64,000 nucleotides of DNA from Ottowia thiooxydans DSM 14619 (GTDB taxonomy: Bacteria > Pseudomonadota > Gammaproteobacteria > Burkholderiales > Burkholderiaceae_C). The notes under the pieces are model-generated. The model ran no database searches and was not told the DNA's origin. It worked only from the letters and a program-made list of their open reading frames with translations. The position numbers were made by a program, and so were the translations under genes. This document shows positions 508 through 36,237 of this stretch, in pieces. The DNA is taken from positions 1-64,000 of the forward strand of contig NZ_AUGX01000026.1 of assembly GCF_000422885.1 (NCBI RefSeq), in the 5' to 3' direction. Positions within the stretch are counted from its first letter, which is position 1. Each line of letters opens with the position of its first letter.

Positions 508-987
508 TCACTTACCGTACTGTTCGTTATTGACCTGCTCCATCCAGTCGGTGGTCTTGCCGTCCAGAGCTTCCGCAATAGCGACATGGCTCATGGCGGT
601 AGTGGGCGCCGCACCATGCCAATGCTTCACATTCGGTGGAATCCAGACTACATCGCCTGAGCGGATCTCCTGCAGGGGCTGGCCCCATTTCTGAACCCTT
701 CCTGAACCCGCTGTAACGATCAGCGTCTGACCCAATGGGTGCGCGTGCCAAGCGGTTCGGGCGCCAGGCTCAAAGGTGACGATGCCACCACCGACGCGAG
801 CAGGCGCAGGGGTTTGGAAACGTGAGTCAACTCGCACGGCTCCGGTGAAATTCTGTGCGGGTCCCGCTGTGGACGGTATGGTGCCCACACGGGACACAGT
901 GACGGGCGCGGATTCTTGCGCGCCGACGCCGGACATCCCGATGACCGAAGCCAGGGCCATGGAAACAGGTAATTTTTTCATCTTCAT
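508..987 (-). CDS. Secreted cupin-domain protein
   Basis: A 159-residue protein with an N-terminal signal peptide ending near GVGA-QES. It is followed by a single cupin barrel. Cupin motif 1 is visible as TAWHAHPLGQTL (metal-binding histidines) and motif 2 as GDVVWIPPNVKHWHG. Proteins of this type are often annotated as (R)-mandelonitrile lyase-like or carboxymuconolactone-decarboxylase-associated cupins. The substrate cannot be read from the sequence. It begins about 20 bases after the flavodoxin stop, on the same strand, so it is probably the last gene of the molybdoenzyme operon. ATG at 987 or 981 could be the start. Confidence 0.85.
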   Translation of the reverse strand: MKMKKLPVSMALASVIGMSGVGAQESAPVTVSRVGTIPSTAGPAQNFTGAVRVDSRFQTPAPARVGGGIVTFEPGARTAWHAHPLGQTLIVTAGSGRVQKWGQPLQEIRSGDVVWIPPNVKHWHGAAPTTAMSHVAIAEALDGKTTDWMEQVNNEQYGK

Positions 988-28896: not shown

Positions 28897-29934
28897 CTAT
28901 GTGGGTTGAACCCTGACCTGCCAACCTCCCTTTATAGGTGTGGTCAAAAACTTCACAGGCAGGAACCGCTCAACCATTTCAAAGTTGGTTTTCGCGTGCA
29001 GGGTGAGCTCAGTACAGGTGTAGGCCGCCGCGCGCTGGCGCTTCCCTACAGCCAAAGCAAGTGGCAGCGCCCACTGATCGGCCAAGTGCGGGCCGAGCGC
29101 GGCATCGCTTGCCTGGTAGGCGCTCACTTCTTGCGCCACGTTGCGTGCGACCTTCTCGGAGCTGACACCCTTTTCACCGAACGCAGTAAAGACCTCAGTG
29201 ACCTGCTCATAGGCGAGTGTTGCCATCAAGGCGTTCCCTGGTCCTTCGTTCTGGCGGGCAGGTGCCACGCGCAGTTGATCTTCACTCCAACCCAATGATG
29301 CACCGAGTTGCTCTAGCTCCCGGCGGGCGATGGAACGGTTCAGTGCCGGTGCCAGGCATTCCGCATGGGCTTGTACTTCGGCACCACGGTCGTTCAAATC
29401 GAACGGCTCAAGCTCGTTGATCGCGGGCTTGATCACTACCTCTATTTCACCGCCACCTGCAGGGTAGAAGCCGAGCCGGCGCAGCTTGAGTTCGGCATTG
29501 GCGCCCAGCCTGCGCAGCAAGGGTGCGTAGCTGCGCTCCAGGAAGTGGAAAGGCGGCGCCATGGGGTTGTGCGTGCCACCGCCCAGCTTCAAATGACTCT
29601 GAGCATCGGCCATCAACAGTGCTGGCCACACCGTCTGCAGTACCAGCGTGCAGCTGCCCGCCGTGCCAACGTTGAAGTTGTAGTTACCCGCGCGCACCTG
29701 GCCCGGCCTGAAGCTCAGGGTCTGGGAATTCAGTTCAGCACCATGGACTTCAGCGCCGCAGATTTCAGTGGCCGCATTGACGCAGGTCAGGTGCTGGCGC
29801 ATCAAACCAGGTTTGGCCCGGCCGGCGCGGATCTTCGTCAGCGCAAACGGCTGCCCCGTGCACATGGAAAGCGCTAGCGAAGTCCGCAGGATTTGTCCTC
29901 CACCCTCACCGGCGGAGCCATCAATTTCAATCAT
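28897..29934 (-). CDS. rtcA: RNA 3'-terminal phosphate cyclase RtcA
   Basis: A 345-residue cyclase. The N-terminus IDGSAGEGGGQILRTSLALS and FRPGQVRAGNYNF are diagnostic. His313 in TLHAKTN is the likely AMP-accepting histidine by comparison with E. coli RtcA. It converts RNA 3'-phosphate ends to 2',3'-cyclic phosphate using ATP, and can adenylate 5'-phosphates. It is the last gene of the rsr-Y RNA-rtcB-nucleotidyltransferase-rtcA unit, all on the minus strand and presumably under the sigma54 promoter. Confidence 0.95.
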   Translation of the reverse strand: MIEIDGSAGEGGGQILRTSLALSMCTGQPFALTKIRAGRAKPGLMRQHLTCVNAATEICGAEVHGAELNSQTLSFRPGQVRAGNYNFNVGTAGSCTLVLQTVWPALLMADAQSHLKLGGGTHNPMAPPFHFLERSYAPLLRRLGANAELKLRRLGFYPAGGGEIEVVIKPAINELEPFDLNDRGAEVQAHAECLAPALNRSIARRELEQLGASLGWSEDQLRVAPARQNEGPGNALMATLAYEQVTEVFTAFGEKGVSSEKVARNVAQEVSAYQASDAALGPHLADQWALPLALAVGKRQRAAAYTCTELTLHAKTNFEMVERFLPVKFLTTPIKGGWQVRVQPT

Positions 29935-30064: not shown

Positions 30065-30886
30065 TCAATAGGCTCGCGTGTCGAAGTGCAGCACGGCATC
30101 ATGCAGATACTCGTCAAGATGCACTCCATCTGCCCTGGGGCCTTTGGCGATGGTGTGGGCCATCGCTTCGGCCAGTTCTGCCTCAATGAAGTGGTGGATC
30201 CCCACCCAGCGCGGGCTCGTCGCCGCCTCCCCCGCCCGCATCTTCATCTCCAGCAGCGCGTTCACTTCATCCAGCAAGGCCCGATCCGTCAGGGTGGCGC
30301 TGGCCAGTTCCGCAAAGCGCATCGGCGGAACGCCGCGCCCCTCACGTATCCAGCGTGCCGCCAACAATGGGCGCAAGACATACAGATACTTCTTGTACCG
30401 GACGACCTCGCCATACAAGTGCTCCCGCAGGTTTTTCTTGGCCATCGACACGTAGTGGTGATAGCCTCGTACCGGCGAAAAACTCTCCTCAGCCAAGGTG
30501 CGAAGCCGGTCTGCCCACGGATTTTCCTGTTGGTAGATGATGGGCGAGCGCAGCCATTCGAGCAAGGTGGGATTGGAATCGCTCGCCAGTTGCAGCGCTT
30601 TGCGCAAATCCCAGCCATTGATGTCCAGCTCACCGCTGATGGGCTGCTCGATCACGTCGCGGCCCGGGCTCACGGTCAGGTACCAGTCAAGCCGGTTGAC
30701 GTAGACAAATCGTACGTCGTAGTCGCTGTCTGGCGAGGCAAAGCCCCAGCCCCTGCTGCCGGACTCGCAAGCGAACAGCACCTTGACCTGATGCTGCCGT
30801 TCGAGTGCCGCCAGGTTCTCCTTGATGGTGACCCGCATCTCATCCGAGACAGGGTGCGCGCTCAGAACGGTTTCCATTCCCTTCAT
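30065..30886 (-). CDS. Nucleotidyltransferase-domain protein of the RNA-repair operon (YcgL/COG3541-like)
   Basis: A 273-residue protein of the DNA polymerase beta-like nucleotidyltransferase superfamily. The motif GSRGWGFASPDSDYD contains the GS and the paired aspartates that bind metal-NTP. The start ATG 30886 has a strong ribosome site (GGGGGAAGAG) six bases upstream; ATG 30943 directly after the rtcB stop is possible. It lies between rtcB and rtcA. It may add or modify nucleotides on cleaved RNA ends or on the Y RNAs. That activity is inference from context only. Confidence 0.85.
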   Translation of the reverse strand: MKGMETVLSAHPVSDEMRVTIKENLAALERQHQVKVLFACESGSRGWGFASPDSDYDVRFVYVNRLDWYLTVSPGRDVIEQPISGELDINGWDLRKALQLASDSNPTLLEWLRSPIIYQQENPWADRLRTLAEESFSPVRGYHHYVSMAKKNLREHLYGEVVRYKKYLYVLRPLLAARWIREGRGVPPMRFAELASATLTDRALLDEVNALLEMKMRAGEAATSPRWVGIHHFIEAELAEAMAHTIAKGPRADGVHLDEYLHDAVLHFDTRAY

Positions 30887-30943
30887 GTTCTCTTCCCCCA
30901 GTTCATTCTCATGGGTGGATGAGAGCACAAGGCCCTCATCCAC

Positions 30944-32170
30944 CTATCCCTTCACGCACACGACCTGCTTCAGGGTGTACACCACTTCGACCAGATCGCT
31001 CTGCGCCGCCATAACGGCATCGATGTCTTTGTAGGCCATCGGGATTTCGTCAATAACGTCAGCATCCTTTCGACACTCAACGCCCGCCGTAGCCCTCGCC
31101 TGGTCCTCCAGAGTGAACATCTTCTTGGCCTTGGTGCGGCTCATCACTCGGCCCGCGCCGTGGCTGCAGCTCTCAAAGCTTTCCGGGTTTCCCAGGCCGC
31201 GCACAATATAGCTGCGTGCGCCCATGCTTCCCGGAATGATGCCCATCTCACCGCGCTTGGCACTTACGGCACCTTTGCGGGTCACGAACACATCCTGGCC
31301 GAAGTGGCGCTCCTGCTGCACGTAGTTGTGGTGGCAATTCACTGCTTCCACATGCGCATCGAACGGCTTGGTAATCACCAAACGCACCGTGGCGATCAGG
31401 TTGGCCATCATTACTTCGCGGTTCTTCATCGCGAACTTTTGTGCCCAGGACACACCACGCACGTAGTCACCAAAATACTGGGCGCCTTCTTCGAAGTAAG
31501 CCAGGTCTTTATCTGGCAGATTACGTTGATGGCGCTCCGCGTCTTTCTTGGCCAGCTCTATGAAGTGCGTACCGATGGCATTTCCCACACCGCGCGAACC
31601 AGAGTGCAGCATGAACCACACGAAGCCCGCTTCATCAAGGCAGACCTCAATGAAGTGGTTTCCGCCACCCAGTGTGCCCAAGTGCTTACGGTTGTTTGTG
31701 CTCGCGAGACGCGGGTGCAGTTCGCAAAGCGAATCGAACTCACCCACCAGCGTGGCCCAGATCTGATCTACCGCTTCAGGTGGATTTTCCCAGCTACCTT
31801 TATCGCGGCCACGGCTCTTGGGGCTGGACCCGTGTGGCACAGCCCTTTCTATGGCCGAGCGCAGTGGTGCCAGGTTATCAGGCAGATCTTCCGCACGCAG
31901 CGTGGTCTTGGCGGCCATCATGCCGCAGCCAATATCCACACCCACGGCGGCCGGGATGATGGCTTTCAGCGTTGGGATCACAGAGCCTACAGTGGCGCCA
32001 ATACCCAGGTGTACATCTGGCATGGCCGCGATGTGTTTGAACACGATGGGCAGGCGAGCGGCGTTGGCGAGCTGCTTTCGCGCCTCATCTTCCACAGGGA
32101 CACCTTGGGTCCACATTTTTACCGGCACACCGCCGGAGATTTCTTCTACGTTGTAGTTTTGCTTTGACAT
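30944..32170 (-). CDS. rtcB: tRNA-splicing ligase RtcB
   Basis: A 408-residue RNA ligase, the usual bacterial length. VGVDIGCGM carries the Mn-binding Asp and Cys82. SCSHGAGRVMSR carries His337, the guanylylated histidine, at the same number as in E. coli RtcB. It joins RNA 2',3'-cyclic phosphate or 3'-phosphate ends to 5'-OH ends with GTP. It starts just after the Y RNA array, 13 bases beyond the last U-tract, with only a weak ribosome site. Confidence 0.96.
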   Translation of the reverse strand: MSKQNYNVEEISGGVPVKMWTQGVPVEDEARKQLANAARLPIVFKHIAAMPDVHLGIGATVGSVIPTLKAIIPAAVGVDIGCGMMAAKTTLRAEDLPDNLAPLRSAIERAVPHGSSPKSRGRDKGSWENPPEAVDQIWATLVGEFDSLCELHPRLASTNNRKHLGTLGGGNHFIEVCLDEAGFVWFMLHSGSRGVGNAIGTHFIELAKKDAERHQRNLPDKDLAYFEEGAQYFGDYVRGVSWAQKFAMKNREVMMANLIATVRLVITKPFDAHVEAVNCHHNYVQQERHFGQDVFVTRKGAVSAKRGEMGIIPGSMGARSYIVRGLGNPESFESCSHGAGRVMSRTKAKKMFTLEDQARATAGVECRKDADVIDEIPMAYKDIDAVMAAQSDLVEVVYTLKQVVCVKG

Positions 32171-32191
32171 GTTCTTATTCTCAAAAAAAGT

Positions 32192-32356
32192 GCGGTGACT
32201 AAGTCAGGAGCTCTCTACAAGAGAGCCCCACGTCAATGAAATTTTCAACCCGCTTCCATTGCTGGACCGGGGGGCGCAGTACGGGCGCTTCCAGATGGCT
32301 CTGGAGACACGCCCTGCTCGCTATGAGCTATTTGTAATTTCATCTGCATTCAACGC
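32192..32356 (-). ncRNA. Y-RNA-like unit 5 (rtcB-proximal, long)
   Basis: Read on the minus strand. The 5' Ro-type arm GCGUUGA (32356-32350) is followed by AUGCA, then the 8-nt arm GAUGAAAU (32344-32337), then UACA. AUUUCAUU (32242-32235) closes the 8-bp stem. The likely 3' Ro arm is UCACCGC (32198-32192; 6 of 7 pairs). The insert has hairpins unlike tRNA (GGGCG/CGCCC with CCAGA/UCUGG inside). An extra 9-bp hairpin (32207-32229) sits in the 3' internal loop. U7 (32189-32183) follows the last arm, as in a terminator. It is the most divergent unit. Confidence 0.55.
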
Positions 32357-32370
32357 TAAATAGGCGATGC

Positions 32371-32502
32371 CCTGCTGCGACAAGGATTGGTGAAACATTC
32401 GTGCTCTACCACTGAGCTACGGTCTCTTTGCAGAAACCGACGGGATTCGAACCCGTGACCCCGAGAGTGAAAGTCTGTAGTTCCACCTGCATTCGCAGCA
32501 AG
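32371..32502 (-). ncRNA. yrlA: Y-RNA-like unit 4 with a complete permuted tRNA-like module (YrlA type)
   Basis: Minus strand. The Ro stem is UGCUGCGA (32500-32493) with UCGCAGCA (32380-32373), followed by AUGCA. The 8-bp stem is GGUGGAAC with GUUUCACC, then UACA. The insert is a tRNA in permuted order: T-arm ACGGG-UUCGAAU-CCCGU (32456-32440), acceptor strand CGGUUUC, a closing loop UGCAAA, acceptor strand GAGACCG, and D-arm GCUC-AGUGGUA-GAGC (32417-32403). The acceptor stem is 7 bp with one G-U. There is no free CCA end, as known for YrlA RNAs. The 3' internal loop is AAUCCUUG. Fold made by eye. Confidence 0.85.
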
Positions 32503-32514
32503 ACATCAAAAAAA

Positions 32515-32609
32515 TGCGCGACAAGGGTCGACAAGACGTTGCCAGACCGGTTTCCCGGTTGGGGGTTCGATCCCCCGGGCGTCGATGTAGTCCTGTCAGC
32601 ATTCGCGCA
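32515..32609 (-). ncRNA. Y-RNA-like unit 3 with a reduced tRNA-like module
   Basis: Minus strand. The Ro stem UGCGCGA (32609-32603) pairs with UCGCGCA (32521-32515), followed by AUGCU. The 8-bp stem is GACAGGAC with GUCUUGUC, then UACA. The insert keeps a T-arm-like hairpin (GGGG-AUCGAAC-CCCC with one A for U at loop position 1). It also has an acceptor-like stem ACCGG/CCGGU capped by a GAAA tetraloop, but no recognisable D-arm. The 3' internal loop GACCCUUG matches unit 4. U7 (32514-32508) directly follows the last stem, giving a terminator-like 3' end. Confidence 0.75.
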
Positions 32610-32626
32610 AAAAACCAGTAACTCCC

Positions 32627-32692
32627 CGCGTGACGACTAACAATTGATGAGGCGTATATCAACAATGTAGCCCCACCTGCATTCGCCACGCG
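32627..32692 (-). ncRNA. Y-RNA-like unit 2, minimal form without a tRNA-like module
   Basis: Minus strand. A 10-bp Ro stem CGCGUGGCGA (32692-32683) pairs with UCGUCACGCG (32636-32627), one pair being G-U. AUGCA follows. The 8-bp stem GGUGGGGC pairs with GCCUCAUC, then UACA and a simple loop of only 16 nt in all. The 3' internal loop is AAUUGUUAG. The GGCGAAUG element fits the published bacterial Ro-binding consensus. This looks like a Ro-binding scaffold lacking an effector module. Confidence 0.72.
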
Positions 32693-32718
32693 ACGACGTC
32701 TGTTCGTCAAGGTTTGAT

Positions 32719-32824
32719 GCCCCAGGCGACGAGAGTTGCAAGAGCGGCCTACGGGTTCTCCGTTGCGGGCTAGCAGGCCCGCGCGGCCTAACGTGCTGTA
32801 CTCCTGCAGGCATTCGCCTGGGAC
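32719..32824 (-). ncRNA. Y-RNA-like unit 1 (rsr-proximal)
   Basis: Minus strand, 27 bases after the rsr stop codon. The Ro stem CCCAGGCGA (32822-32814) pairs with UCGCCUGGG (32729-32721), extendable by two pairs, and is followed by AUGCC. The 8-bp stem is UGCAGGAG with CUCUUGCA, then UACA. The 3' loop is ACUCUCG. The insert has GCGGGC-CUGCUA-GCCCGC and ACGG-AGAAC-CCGU hairpins in the positions of the T-arm and closed acceptor stem, but without tRNA consensus bases. GGCGAAUG and a 3' CGUC fit the Ro-binding consensus as I recall it. Confidence 0.75.
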
Positions 32825-32851
32825 ACCAAATCAAAATCATCTACCGCAGTG

Positions 32852-34426
32852 CTACTGTTGCACCAGTGAGACCTTTTCGATCTCACCGACCCAGTGCTCT
32901 GCGTCCATCTGGCCGTTCGCAAAGCTCGCGACCATGGTGAACACTGCATCAGAGAATCCGCCGACATTCAAGATGTCGTGGCGCTCCGCTGCCTGTGTGG
33001 TCACACCGGGCTGGATGTCTATGCACACCAGGCGCGCTTTAGGGTTGCGCTTTTTCAGCACTTCCCATTCGCGCAGGGTCTGCGTCGCTCCGTGCCGGTT
33101 GGCATCAACCCAGGACTCGTTATCCGAGACCAGGATCAACAGATCCACCGGCGCACGCTCACGGTTCAACAGAGCCAGCGGCGCGCTGCAGTTGGTACCC
33201 CCGCCACCGATCTTGGCCAGTGCTTGCGCATTGGTCATTACCGAGTCGCGGGCGTTCAACGACAGCTTCACCACCTCTTGCTCGAATGGCAATACACGAG
33301 CCTGAGGGTTCTTGCGCAGTACCGCCGCAGCGACCAAGGCCGCCACGTCGATACAACGCACGCTGGATGTCGCAGAACCGCGATGGCCAGTCACGACCGA
33401 GCTCATAGAGCCCGACACGTCAGGGCACACCACCACACGCCCCGCAAAGCTGGGCACGTTGTTCAGCGCGACTTCCATCGCATCCTGCAGCGCATCACGC
33501 ACTGGTTGTGGCACGGCTTCTCCGGTTGCCTTGAACGCAGCCATGAGCTGGTAGGGCATCACACGAGCCTTGGCCACAGCCAGTGGATCACGCAGCTTGG
33601 CAGCGATCACATCGGTCATCCCTTCGACTTCGAACACGCCGTGACGAGCAAAGGTGTTCAGGTTCTGACGCACCATCTGCCAAGAACCAGTGCGAGCGAT
33701 CTGCGTCCACTGGGTGGAGTCCAGATTCAGTGCAGTCAGCATCTGGAACGGAACCTCCGGCACATGGGTCGCTACGCCTTGGGCACTTTCGCGCTTGAAG
33801 CGTTCGAACGCTTGCGTGATGGGCGGCAGAGCCGCTTCATCGAGTGGCTTGCCTATCAACCACGCGAACCAGGCGGCACGCCAGGCCTCGGAAGGCTTGG
33901 GGTGAACCATCTTCACCACGTCGGTCAGCGAAGGCGTGTTGCCCACGGCGGCATTCAGCAGTTGCTTCTCGGTTGCCGTCAGCAGCCAGTGCTGTACCAG
34001 CTTCTTAGGGCGGGTACCTAGCGATTTGCGGCCTACGGCGCCGCTGCGCAGGATTTGCACGAAGTTGCGCAGCATCTTGCCGTTATCAACCACGCGTGAA
34101 AACACCTGATTCAGCAGAGCCACATCACGCACAGCCAGGCTGGCTGCGAGCAGTGCTGGCATGTCCTTCATATAGCCGGATTCACGGGCATAGATGGCAG
34201 TCTTGGCGACGAAGGTGGCATCCACCTCTTGAGCCAGTGCGGTCACTTTGTCGAGTTGGTCTTCCGCATGGGCATAGAAGGTCTTGCTCAGGCAGCCCGT
34301 AGTGGCCAGTTGTGCCAGCTGATGACGGGGGCTGAAAGCGTAAGCCGGCGCCTGCTCTGCATTGCGTGCAGTGGGCGTAGGCAGTAGGGCGCCTCTGAGG
34401 GTTTGGAAGAGTTGTGTGTTGACCAT
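32852..34426 (-). CDS. rsr: Ro60/TROVE-domain RNA-binding protein (Rsr)
   Basis: A 524-residue bacterial Ro orthologue. Residues about 1-330 form the helical TROVE ring (YAFSPRHQLAQLATTGCLSK, FVAKTAIYARESGYMKDMPA). The C-terminal third is a von Willebrand A domain with the MIDAS DVSGSMSS. It binds Y RNAs on its outer surface and misfolded RNA ends in its ring, and can hand RNA to polynucleotide phosphorylase in known bacteria. Start is ATG 34426, preceded by AGAGAAG; the TTG at 34450 is less likely. It is the first gene after the sigma54 promoter. Confidence 0.95.
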   Translation of the reverse strand: MVNTQLFQTLRGALLPTPTARNAEQAPAYAFSPRHQLAQLATTGCLSKTFYAHAEDQLDKVTALAQEVDATFVAKTAIYARESGYMKDMPALLAASLAVRDVALLNQVFSRVVDNGKMLRNFVQILRSGAVGRKSLGTRPKKLVQHWLLTATEKQLLNAAVGNTPSLTDVVKMVHPKPSEAWRAAWFAWLIGKPLDEAALPPITQAFERFKRESAQGVATHVPEVPFQMLTALNLDSTQWTQIARTGSWQMVRQNLNTFARHGVFEVEGMTDVIAAKLRDPLAVAKARVMPYQLMAAFKATGEAVPQPVRDALQDAMEVALNNVPSFAGRVVVCPDVSGSMSSVVTGHRGSATSSVRCIDVAALVAAAVLRKNPQARVLPFEQEVVKLSLNARDSVMTNAQALAKIGGGGTNCSAPLALLNRERAPVDLLILVSDNESWVDANRHGATQTLREWEVLKKRNPKARLVCIDIQPGVTTQAAERHDILNVGGFSDAVFTMVASFANGQMDAEHWVGEIEKVSLVQQ

Positions 34427-34472
34427 GATTGTTCTTCTCTTTGCATTCAACTTGTTGTTCGTGCCAATTACT

Positions 34473-34490
34473 TTGCAAAGGGTGTGCCAA
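34473..34490 (-). promoter_or_regulatory. Sigma54 (-24/-12) promoter of the rsr-Y RNA-rtcBA operon
   Basis: On the minus strand TTGGCACACCCTTTGCAA matches the consensus TGGCAC-N5-TTGC, with exactly 10 bases between the GG and GC doublets. It ends 46 bases before the rsr start codon. The divergent gene encodes RtcR, a sigma54 activator, so the pairing of promoter and activator is consistent. Confidence 0.88.
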
Positions 34491-34632: not shown

Positions 34633-36237
34633 ATGGCTAAAAAGAACGTTGTCGTCGGTTTCATGGGAACCCAGCTGGATTCCGGTCAAGGCGCAGGTCG
34701 CTGGGAAAAGTGGCGGCCCACGATTTCCCTGGTTCAGCACGAAGACACACAGATTGACCGCCTGGAGTTGCTCTACACCACGCGCTATGAGGCCTTGGCC
34801 CACACCCTGGTGCGAGACATTGCGGGGGCTTCGCCGGGCACCGTCGTGAACCTGGTGCGCATCGATGTAGAAGACCCCTGGGATTTCGGTGAGATGTACG
34901 CGGCGCTTTATGACTGGGCGCGCGCTTATCACTTTGATCCGGATCATGAGCAGTATTGGGCCCACATCACCACCGGCACCCATGTGGCGCAAATCTGCAT
35001 GTTCTTGATGGTGGAATCTCGCTTCATCCCTGGCGTGCTGCTGCAAACGGCTCCGCCGAAGAAACAGCAGGCGGGCAACCCTGGCAGCTACACGCTCATT
35101 GACCTGGATCTCTCGCGCTACAACGTTCTGGCCCAGCGCTTCAGCCAAGCCCATTCGGAAGCGCTGGAGTTCCTGAAAAGTGGCATCCCTACTCGCAATC
35201 AGCGCTTCAATGCCTTGATCGAGGAGATTGAGCGCGTGGCTGTGCGCTCGCACGCGCCTATCTTGCTCACAGGCCCCACCGGCGCCGGCAAGTCCCATCT
35301 GGCGCGGCGCATGTTCGAGCTGAAGAAGTCGCGCCATCAGGTGCAAGGCGATTTTGTCGAGGTGAACTGCGCCACCTTGCGTGGGGATGGGGCCGCCTCC
35401 ACCTTGTTCGGCCACAAGAAGGGGGCTTTCACAGGAGCTGCTGCAGACCGGGCGGGGCTGCTGCGCACGGCGCATCAGGGTGTGCTTTTTCTTGATGAAA
35501 TCGGCGAGCTGGGGCTGGACGAGCAGGCCATGCTGCTGAAGGCCGTGGAAGAGAAACGTTTCTTTCCTATGGGCAGCGACCGCGAGGTCAGCAGCGATTT
35601 CCAGCTGATCGCCGGCACCAACCGTGATCTGCGCCTTGATGTGGCGCAGGGGCGTTTTCGAGAAGACTTGTTCGCACGTATCAACCTCTGGGCGTACACA
35701 CTGCCCAGCTTGGCACAGCGCCCGGAAGATATCGAGCCCAATATGGACCATCTGCTCATACGAGCAGCTGCAGAAACAGGCCAAGCCGTTCGTTTTAACG
35801 CCGAGGCCAAGACGAGATATCTTCAGTTCGCCAAATCCGCAGAGGCACTTTGGAGCGGCAACTTCCGCGATTTATCTGCCAGCGTGACACGCATGGCAAC
35901 GCTAGCCGATGGTGGGCGTATTTCCACGGCGCTGGTAGATGCTGAAATACAGCGCCTACGATGGCTATGGCAACCGGCAGGGGAGTTAACGGCACCAAAC
36001 GTCGACCTTGGCGCCCTGCTACCGGTGGATGCCGAGAGCAAGCTGGACCTGTTCGACCGCATGCAACTCGAAAGCGTTGTTCGCGTATGCAGAGAGTCGC
36101 CAACGCTTTCCGAGGCAGGGCGACGCCTCTTTGATCAGTCACGCATGCAGCGCTCAGTGGTGAACGACGCTGATCGGCTGCGGAAATATTTGCTCAAGTT
36201 TGAGTTGACTTGGGATGAAGTGCGCCAACAGGCGTGA
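34633..36237 (+). CDS. rtcR: Sigma54-dependent RNA-repair operon activator RtcR
   Basis: A 534-residue bacterial enhancer-binding protein. Residues 1-180 are the RtcR N-terminal CARF-like sensor. The AAA+ domain has Walker A GPTGAGKS, the sigma54-contact loop GAFTGA (in KKGAFTGAAAD), Walker B LFLDEIGEL and GTNRDL. A C-terminal Fis-like region ends the protein (SPTLSEAGRRLFDQSR). RtcR activates rtcBA after RNA damage, and the ligand of the CARF domain is thought to be a cyclic-phosphate RNA end or fragment. It is divergent from rsr. Confidence 0.95.
   Translation: MAKKNVVVGFMGTQLDSGQGAGRWEKWRPTISLVQHEDTQIDRLELLYTTRYEALAHTLVRDIAGASPGTVVNLVRIDVEDPWDFGEMYAALYDWARAYHFDPDHEQYWAHITTGTHVAQICMFLMVESRFIPGVLLQTAPPKKQQAGNPGSYTLIDLDLSRYNVLAQRFSQAHSEALEFLKSGIPTRNQRFNALIEEIERVAVRSHAPILLTGPTGAGKSHLARRMFELKKSRHQVQGDFVEVNCATLRGDGAASTLFGHKKGAFTGAAADRAGLLRTAHQGVLFLDEIGELGLDEQAMLLKAVEEKRFFPMGSDREVSSDFQLIAGTNRDLRLDVAQGRFREDLFARINLWAYTLPSLAQRPEDIEPNMDHLLIRAAAETGQAVRFNAEAKTRYLQFAKSAEALWSGNFRDLSASVTRMATLADGGRISTALVDAEIQRLRWLWQPAGELTAPNVDLGALLPVDAESKLDLFDRMQLESVVRVCRESPTLSEAGRRLFDQSRMQRSVVNDADRLRKYLLKFELTWDEVRQQA

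Follow-up and report, generated by a model that had tools for sequence, protein, structure and literature searches.

Y RNA serves as a tether of the bacterial Ro protein Rsr (PMC7790460, PMC8394870), and in Deinococcus it is PNPase to which Rsr is tethered by Y RNA (PMC7790460). YrlA is a substrate of DusA and TruB (PMC8394870), 5′ tRNA fragments that carry a 2′,3′-cyclic phosphate are bound by RtcR (PMC7790460), and YrlA (PDB 6CU1) has been described as a circular permutation of tRNA (PMC11472068).

The locus compared here with these systems lies in a window of 64 kb (the whole stretch of DNA analysed, 64,000 nucleotides of contig NZ_AUGX01000026.1 of Ottowia thiooxydans DSM 14619), in which five Y-RNA-like units with varying heads share one locus between rsr and rtcB. 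The gene order is like that of Salmonella rsr-yrlBA-rtcBA, and a class 2 unit followed by a class 4 unit parallels yrlB followed by yrlA; however, unit 2 differs from YrlB (RF02565), reaching only 18.2 bits where the cut-off is 97, and we know of no Salmonella counterpart of classes 1, 3 and 5. Unit 4 resembles YrlA (RF02553) in its score, its Ro stem, the GAAUGC and UAC elements and a T-arm placed ahead of the D-arm, but the Rfam consensus of YrlA has no anticodon-like stem, whereas class 4 of this clade carries an extra stem with a 7-nt loop. The Rsr encoded here is orthologous to that of Deinococcus, and the difference from the Deinococcus Rsr-Y RNA-PNPase system lies in several Y RNAs with tRNA-derived heads. 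Models of ordinary tRNAs, when rotated, recognise classes 4 and 5; in contrast to tRNA, these classes end in the anticodon stem or the D-loop, and their acceptor is closed by a hairpin and has no CCA end.

Chen in 2014 reportedly found in every species at least one Y RNA with a tRNA-like domain, so that a locus with more than one Y RNA is no novelty as such. The permutation of YrlA is likewise known already, whereas for the D-loop permutation of class 5, and also for the ordered five-class array and the anticodon hairpin, no description was found in searches of an open-licence library, which excludes the main Y RNA papers. A second tRNA permutation in one family, if true, would mean that tRNA was re-cut at least twice for a single protein. 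To our knowledge, few partners of Ro proteins have been described in bacteria other than Deinococcus, and one handle with separable, partly tRNA-derived heads would make the tether idea directly testable. The row of RNAs with one handle and different heads suggests one protein with interchangeable RNA adaptors, and we consider it probable that the locus holds ordered paralogous Rsr-associated Y RNAs in an RtcR-type operon, which have a common Ro handle and heads of their own and would act as adaptors showing different tRNA faces.

Organization of the RNA Repair Operon

The gene of the sigma-54 activator of RNA repair operons, rtcR (34633-36237, plus strand; Pfam RtcR, 273 bits), is divergent from rsr, and the gap between the two contains a sigma-54 −24/−12 promoter-like site, TGGCAC-N5-TTGC (34475-34489, minus strand), upstream of rsr. 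This site was predicted by its match to the sigma-54 consensus, and it ends about 25 bases ahead of the listed rsr start. The Ro60 orthologue rsr (32852-34450, minus strand) was recognised by Pfam vWA_Ro60 with 75 bits and by TROVE with 23.2 bits (cut-off 23), and its product matches the Deinococcus Rsr of PDB 2nvo over residues 29-514 (E 1.6e-22). Beyond the array, the minus strand carries rtcB, the RNA ligase (30944-32170; Pfam RtcB, 429 bits), rlaP, a nucleotidyltransferase-like RNA repair protein (30065-30943; Pfam RlaP, 319 bits), and rtcA, the RNA 3′-phosphate cyclase (28897-29934; Pfam RTC, 263 bits). Judged by the divergent rtcR, the predicted sigma-54 site, rsr, rtcB, rlaP and rtcA, the operon is of the RtcR-type RNA repair kind. 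No tRNA genes were called in the 64-kb window. The position of rlaP between rtcB and rtcA was noted as a side observation; some relatives also carry rlaP, although the 4 kb flank may miss copies, and a comparison by eye gave no clear link between its presence and the number of Y units.

Five Y-RNA-like Units in the Window

The five GAAUGC elements, the five second stems and the UACA after each of them, which the earlier note had read as five tandem units of one architecture, were all found on the minus strand. Unit 1 (class 1; 32714-32829, 116 nt) consists of the Ro stem, the second stem and a GC-rich three-way junction, and unit 2 (class 2; 32626-32693, 68 nt) of the two stems and a YrlB-like loop of 16 nt. 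Unit 3 (class 3; 32515-32609, 95 nt) carries a T-arm and a short capped hairpin, and the closing stem of this unit is followed by a terminator-like T7 run (32508-32514). Unit 4 (class 4; 32365-32508, 144 nt) is YrlA, a tRNA permuted at the anticodon stem, and unit 5 (32192-32356, 165 nt), a diverged class 5 by its alignment to the class 5 unit of the related locus L086, is also followed by a terminator-like T7 run (32183-32189). All these features lie on the minus strand, and the heads measure 54, 16, 52, 83 and about 92 nt in units 1 to 5, respectively.

The fold of the 672-nt region is more stable than that of 20 shuffles (z −6.25). Across the window and 78 related loci, a unit was formed at 252 of 273 GAATGC anchors vs. 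109 of 3194 anchors with the six letters permuted; a looser unit detector was dropped, as 444 of 896 random anchors passed it. The Ro-binding-type paired base with its GAAUGC-type element is complete in units 1-4, and the array adjoins rsr, the Ro60 gene, as is general for bacterial Y RNAs. Unit 4, with 72.4 bits in the Rfam YrlA model (RF02553, cut-off 69), is the sole unit of the window above any Rfam threshold; in the same model units 3, 2 and 1 stayed below the cut-off with 32, 27 and 20.8 bits and unit 5 gave no match. Further YrlA-model matches elsewhere in the genome of the window (≤22.1 bits) were rejected as chance matches, since 13 of 14 control genomes also yield matches below the cut-off.

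Unit 5 departs from the others in its 3′ part, as the earlier note had also remarked. Its 3′ Ro arm, UCACCGC, comes after a loop of 36 nt (7-9 nt in the others) containing an extra hairpin, and is paired at 6 of 7 positions. The long 3′ loop led the detector to refuse the unit, which was placed by eye and by alignment. Aligned over its length with the class 5 unit of L086, it scores 63 vs. a shuffled maximum of 25, and it retains both Y stems (6/7 and 9 bp). It has neither the T-loop nor the GG of the D-loop, so the D-loop permutation is not seen in the window itself, and R2, a class 5 model trained on 19 class-I-type units, gave no match on it at E 0.1. The unit thus appears to be a recognisable class 5 copy, decaying or strongly diverged, and the window would contain four canonical Y RNAs and a doubtful one.

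Conservation and Class Order of the Array

A total of 78 rsr loci, two of them from one Cardiobacterium genome, were fetched from named records, and the anatomy, conservation, order and covariation of the array were observed directly in them. At least three units were present downstream of rsr in 54 of the 78 loci. Hence the array of five, which had been set against a usual one or two Y RNAs, is present but is not peculiar to this genome, and multi-unit arrays are usual in this Rsr clade. The class order rises strictly (1 to 5) in 45 of these 54 loci, with class labels assigned by rules that were tuned after inspecting the sequences; the string 12345 was found in 13 loci, 2345 in 14 and 1234 in four. 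The nine loci that break the order show a repeated class 4 or 3 or an early class 4, with class 4 standing first in three Pleomorphomonas loci. Fewer than three units were found downstream of rsr in 24 of the 78 loci. As a separate observation, six of these 24, from Neisseria and Cardiobacterium (L068, L071, L073, L075, L088 and L089), have zero downstream units and Y-RNA-like model matches upstream of rsr.

The rsr gene is rare. A further sample of 397 genomes of the phylum contained nine with the gene (E 1e-30), one of which (L114) is the same genome as L022, leaving eight new genomes. In these eight, the R2 model revealed 2 to 7 units, with at least three in seven of them.

Of 243 units, 228 have their closest counterpart from another genome within their own class, and the core identity is 0.75 within the same class across genomes vs. 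0.60 between different classes within one genome. These values speak for units that are old paralogues rather than recent copies, though close relatives inflate both figures. The pairing, said in the earlier note to be maintained while the arms differ, is borne out by compensatory changes in homologues of classes 1, 3, 4 and 5, the four classes that were aligned, as tested by means other than R-scape. In every alignment tested, the observed covariation score was reached by none of 500 shuffles, a control that takes no account of kinship among loci many of which are close relatives.

Heads of Classes 1, 2 and 3

The class 1 head takes up the GC-rich three-way junction fold in 18 of 21 units, and its alignment of 20 sequences shows double changes at 10 of 32 pairs; its 'further pair types' did not exceed shuffles, of which 498 of 500 were at least as high. 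Class 2 has a short YrlB-like loop. In class 3, a T-arm is followed by a short capped hairpin, and double changes were observed at 10 of 23 pairs in 38 aligned sequences. This hairpin is closed by GCC/GGC in 30 of the 37 units (of 57) in which both could be located, with 12.7 expected from letter shuffling. The class 3 head seems to be a T-arm minimodule, one of three putatively tRNA-derived head types.

Among the 15 of 78 loci that were scanned whole with Rfam, YrlA was found in 11, and classes 1, 3 and 5 matched no family at threshold except tRNA. The tRNA calls inside the arrays lie just above the cut-off of 29 (31.7 bits for the class 5 unit of L012 and 29.8 bits for the class 4 unit of L036).

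Class 4 as an Anticodon-Opened tRNA

For class 4, a tRNA profile gives its best fit with the opening placed in the anticodon stem (29.8 vs. 17.8 bits, mean of 74 units), and a sequence-only rotation test gained 5 bits in 63 of the 74 units. Two covariance models made from ordinary tRNAs only were also compared, namely R1, from 22 tRNAs rotated at the D-loop, and R3, the anticodon-rotated counterpart. With the scores compared by hand, R3 exceeded R1 both on unit 4 of the window (47.6 vs. 36.1 bits) and on class 4 of L014 (61.0 vs. 44.3 bits). Both models also match neighbouring genes in tRNA arrays, which is inevitable for any rotated model. The class 4 alignment shows double changes at 19 of 36 pairs. 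These comparisons show class 4 to be derived, on the evidence of model scores and pairing, from a tRNA opened in the anticodon stem.

An anticodon-like hairpin also seems to be kept in class 4: pair 34-43 is AU in 16, CG in 15 and GC in one of 35 sequences, and the lower-stem pair 47-116 is GC in 30 and CG in five. The CU-type 7-nt loop motif occurs in 56 of 74 units, and in unit 4 of the window the hairpin with its anticodon-like loop is a 13-nt insertion relative to the Rfam consensus, which has no such hairpin. The stem-loop has a mere 2 plus 3 bp and is absent from the RNAalifold prediction for class 4, and the minimum-energy fold of unit 4 of the window differs at this place. A regular-expression test of the anticodon stem returned 0 of 0 matches, and the alignment pair counts were used instead.

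Class 5 as a D-Loop-Opened tRNA in Relatives

In the relatives, class 5 heads typically start directly after UACA with GGTAGAGC, GGTAGACGC or GGTAGCGC. Next come a sealed arm, in some units a long variable arm, the T-arm, a sealed acceptor hairpin and, at the end, the matching 5′ half of the D-arm. This permuted cloverleaf was recovered unguided by RNAalifold, and the class 5 alignments show double changes at 24 of 35 and 24 of 41 pairs. The loop of the anticodon arm, which is the first hairpin, measures 4 nt in 39 of 50 units and 7 nt in only one.

The D-stem halves at both ends of the head pair at three or more of four positions in 49 of 50 units; leaving out L011, which duplicates L072, gives 48 of 49. 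The types among the paired are GAGC/GCTC in 26, GACGC/GCGG in 17 and GCGC/GCGC in four. None of 2000 re-pairings was equally good, in a search whose pattern required GG and listed five head and four tail types and therefore favours agreement; within each class 5 subtype the D-stem varies little.

The sequence-only rotation test gained 5 bits in none of 34 class 5 units (mean 5.5 to 6.2), and because rotation scans with sequence profiles failed, covariance models were used for this class. On 21 class-I-type class 5 units, R1 scored 26.6 to 49.2 bits and stood above R3 in all 21; on 18 Leu-type units, it was higher in 11 and lower in six, with neither model matching in one (both compared by hand). 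The class 5 model R2, trained on class-I-type units, found all 18 Leu-type units (62.9-81.4 bits); its lower edge is not clean, since the best class 4 unit reaches 62.7 bits, and a Methylosinus plasmid locus (L110, 62.8 bits) lies near that score. Two Variovorax/Acidovorax units missed by the detector were found by R2 with 131.4 (L047) and 127.3 bits (L058).

Outside the training set, scores of at least 79 bits were obtained in the genus of the window (L010), on plasmids of Rhizobium etli (L111) and Shinella (L113), and in four of the eight newly sampled phylum genomes (L117, L118, L119 and L122), as well as on the Leu-type units of L022 (= L114, 79.2 bits) and L024. The held-out count leaves out L114 and also L011 (101.9 bits), which equals L072, a training member of R2. 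A search with the class 5 model in 369 genomes belonging to the taxonomic class of the window found matches at E 1e-4 or better in 30 genomes, including that of the window, and no strong class 5 among them; the best match was unit 4 of the window (51.8 bits), and all others reached 50.8 bits or less. On the covariance scores, the folds and the paired D-stem halves, class 5 in the relatives is shown to derive from a tRNA that is open in the D-loop and sealed at both the anticodon arm and the acceptor.

Seven R2 matches occur in one array of L117, a phylum genome outside the class of the window and probably that of an alphaproteobacterium. Two D-loop-opened tRNA mimics, with D-arms of the GCGC type and the Leu type, were observed in one L117 array (464-606 and 840-972, minus strand).

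Possible Functions of the Array

From the sequences we infer that the Y RNAs are transcribed and bind Rsr, and that they have partners and a function as adaptors. The common base (outer stem, GAAUGC, second stem and UACA) would dock on Rsr, and the Y RNAs would be made together with rsr when tRNAs are broken. The heads of three classes are read as re-cut tRNA parts fitted to the handle (the T-arm in class 3, the anticodon-opened tRNA in class 4 and the D-loop-opened tRNA in class 5), and one Rsr ring would probably present different tRNA faces and so recruit or occupy different tRNA-handling proteins during the repair or decay of damaged RNA. The U-runs after classes 3 and 5 would set the 3′ ends and trim read-through into rtcB; the T7 runs after units 3 and 5 of the window are consistent with two sites of intrinsic termination within the array and partial read-through into rtcB. 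For the wider statement, that many Proteobacteria hold in the Rsr operon a kit of different tRNA cuts on one Ro handle, we see even chances; it would include the D-loop-opened class as a second natural tRNA permutation in one RNA family, whose D-arms are of Leu-like, GCGC and GCUC types, and arrays of as many as seven Y RNAs.

The main rival, which we regard as possible but decidedly less probable, takes the tRNA-like heads for decoys that bind anticodon nucleases or other tRNA enzymes and keep them occupied. One source proposes that YrlA might competitively inhibit the anticodon nuclease and mentions that no YrlA fragments were seen (PMC7790460). In the same direction, the loop of the class 5 anticodon arm rarely has 7 nt and mostly 4 nt, and the heads should be neither cut at the anticodon nor charged, because the acceptor is a sealed hairpin and class 5 lacks an ordinary anticodon loop. 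For decoys, however, the Rsr handle would be superfluous, and classes 1 and 2 are left unexplained.

It is unlikely that the array acts mainly in cis, with its units serving as successive terminators or processing sites that tune rtcB-rlaP-rtcA relative to rsr. T-runs (at least four T in the 14 nt downstream of the closing stem) do follow 43 of 57 class 3, 24 of 34 class 5 and 32 of 74 class 4 units vs. 5.0 percent of background windows, but none of 21 class 1 and only nine of 57 class 2 units have them, and termination has no need of heads with conserved tRNA loops. Less likely still is that YrlA alone matters and the remaining units are tandem duplicates drifting to decay, which would suit the decayed unit 5 of the window and the 24 loci with fewer than three downstream units, but neither the persistence of class-specific heads and order across genera with compensatory changes nor a core identity that is higher within a class across genomes than between classes of one genome.

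tRNA-like Elements and tRNA Genes Beside rsr in Relatives

An element of about 230 nt, here called element X, was observed between the Y array and rtcB in L053 (6097-6332) and also in L010, L011 (= L072), L016, L019, L025, L045, L048, L049, L051, L052, L065 and L070. Its mean column identity is 89 percent over 13 rows, one of which is a duplicate, and RNAalifold gives it the fold of a tRNA cloverleaf in which a large insert separates the anticodon arm from the T-arm. Most copies have an ACCA end, and the third acceptor pair is G-U in all 12 rows with letters there, a pair also present in alanine tRNA and tmRNA. Element X matched no Rfam family at threshold and had no match in the genome of the window; among 29 genomes of the genus of the window it was found in only two of the three that bear rsr, and it had one plasmid match and no phage match. 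Although ARAGORN called a tmRNA in one of seven copies, a role as a protein tag was rejected, as frames and stops vary among the inspected copies and one copy has a frame-breaking gap.

In an acidobacterial locus (L079, 948-1156), two Y-RNA-like model matches (30.8 and 65.2 bits) were observed amid tRNA genes. Seven of the 78 loci (L012, L013, L018, L020, L034, L054 and L079) have arrays of 5 to 19 tRNA genes in the 4 kb retrieved on the upstream side of rsr, and these are possibly spare tRNAs next to a tRNA repair operon.
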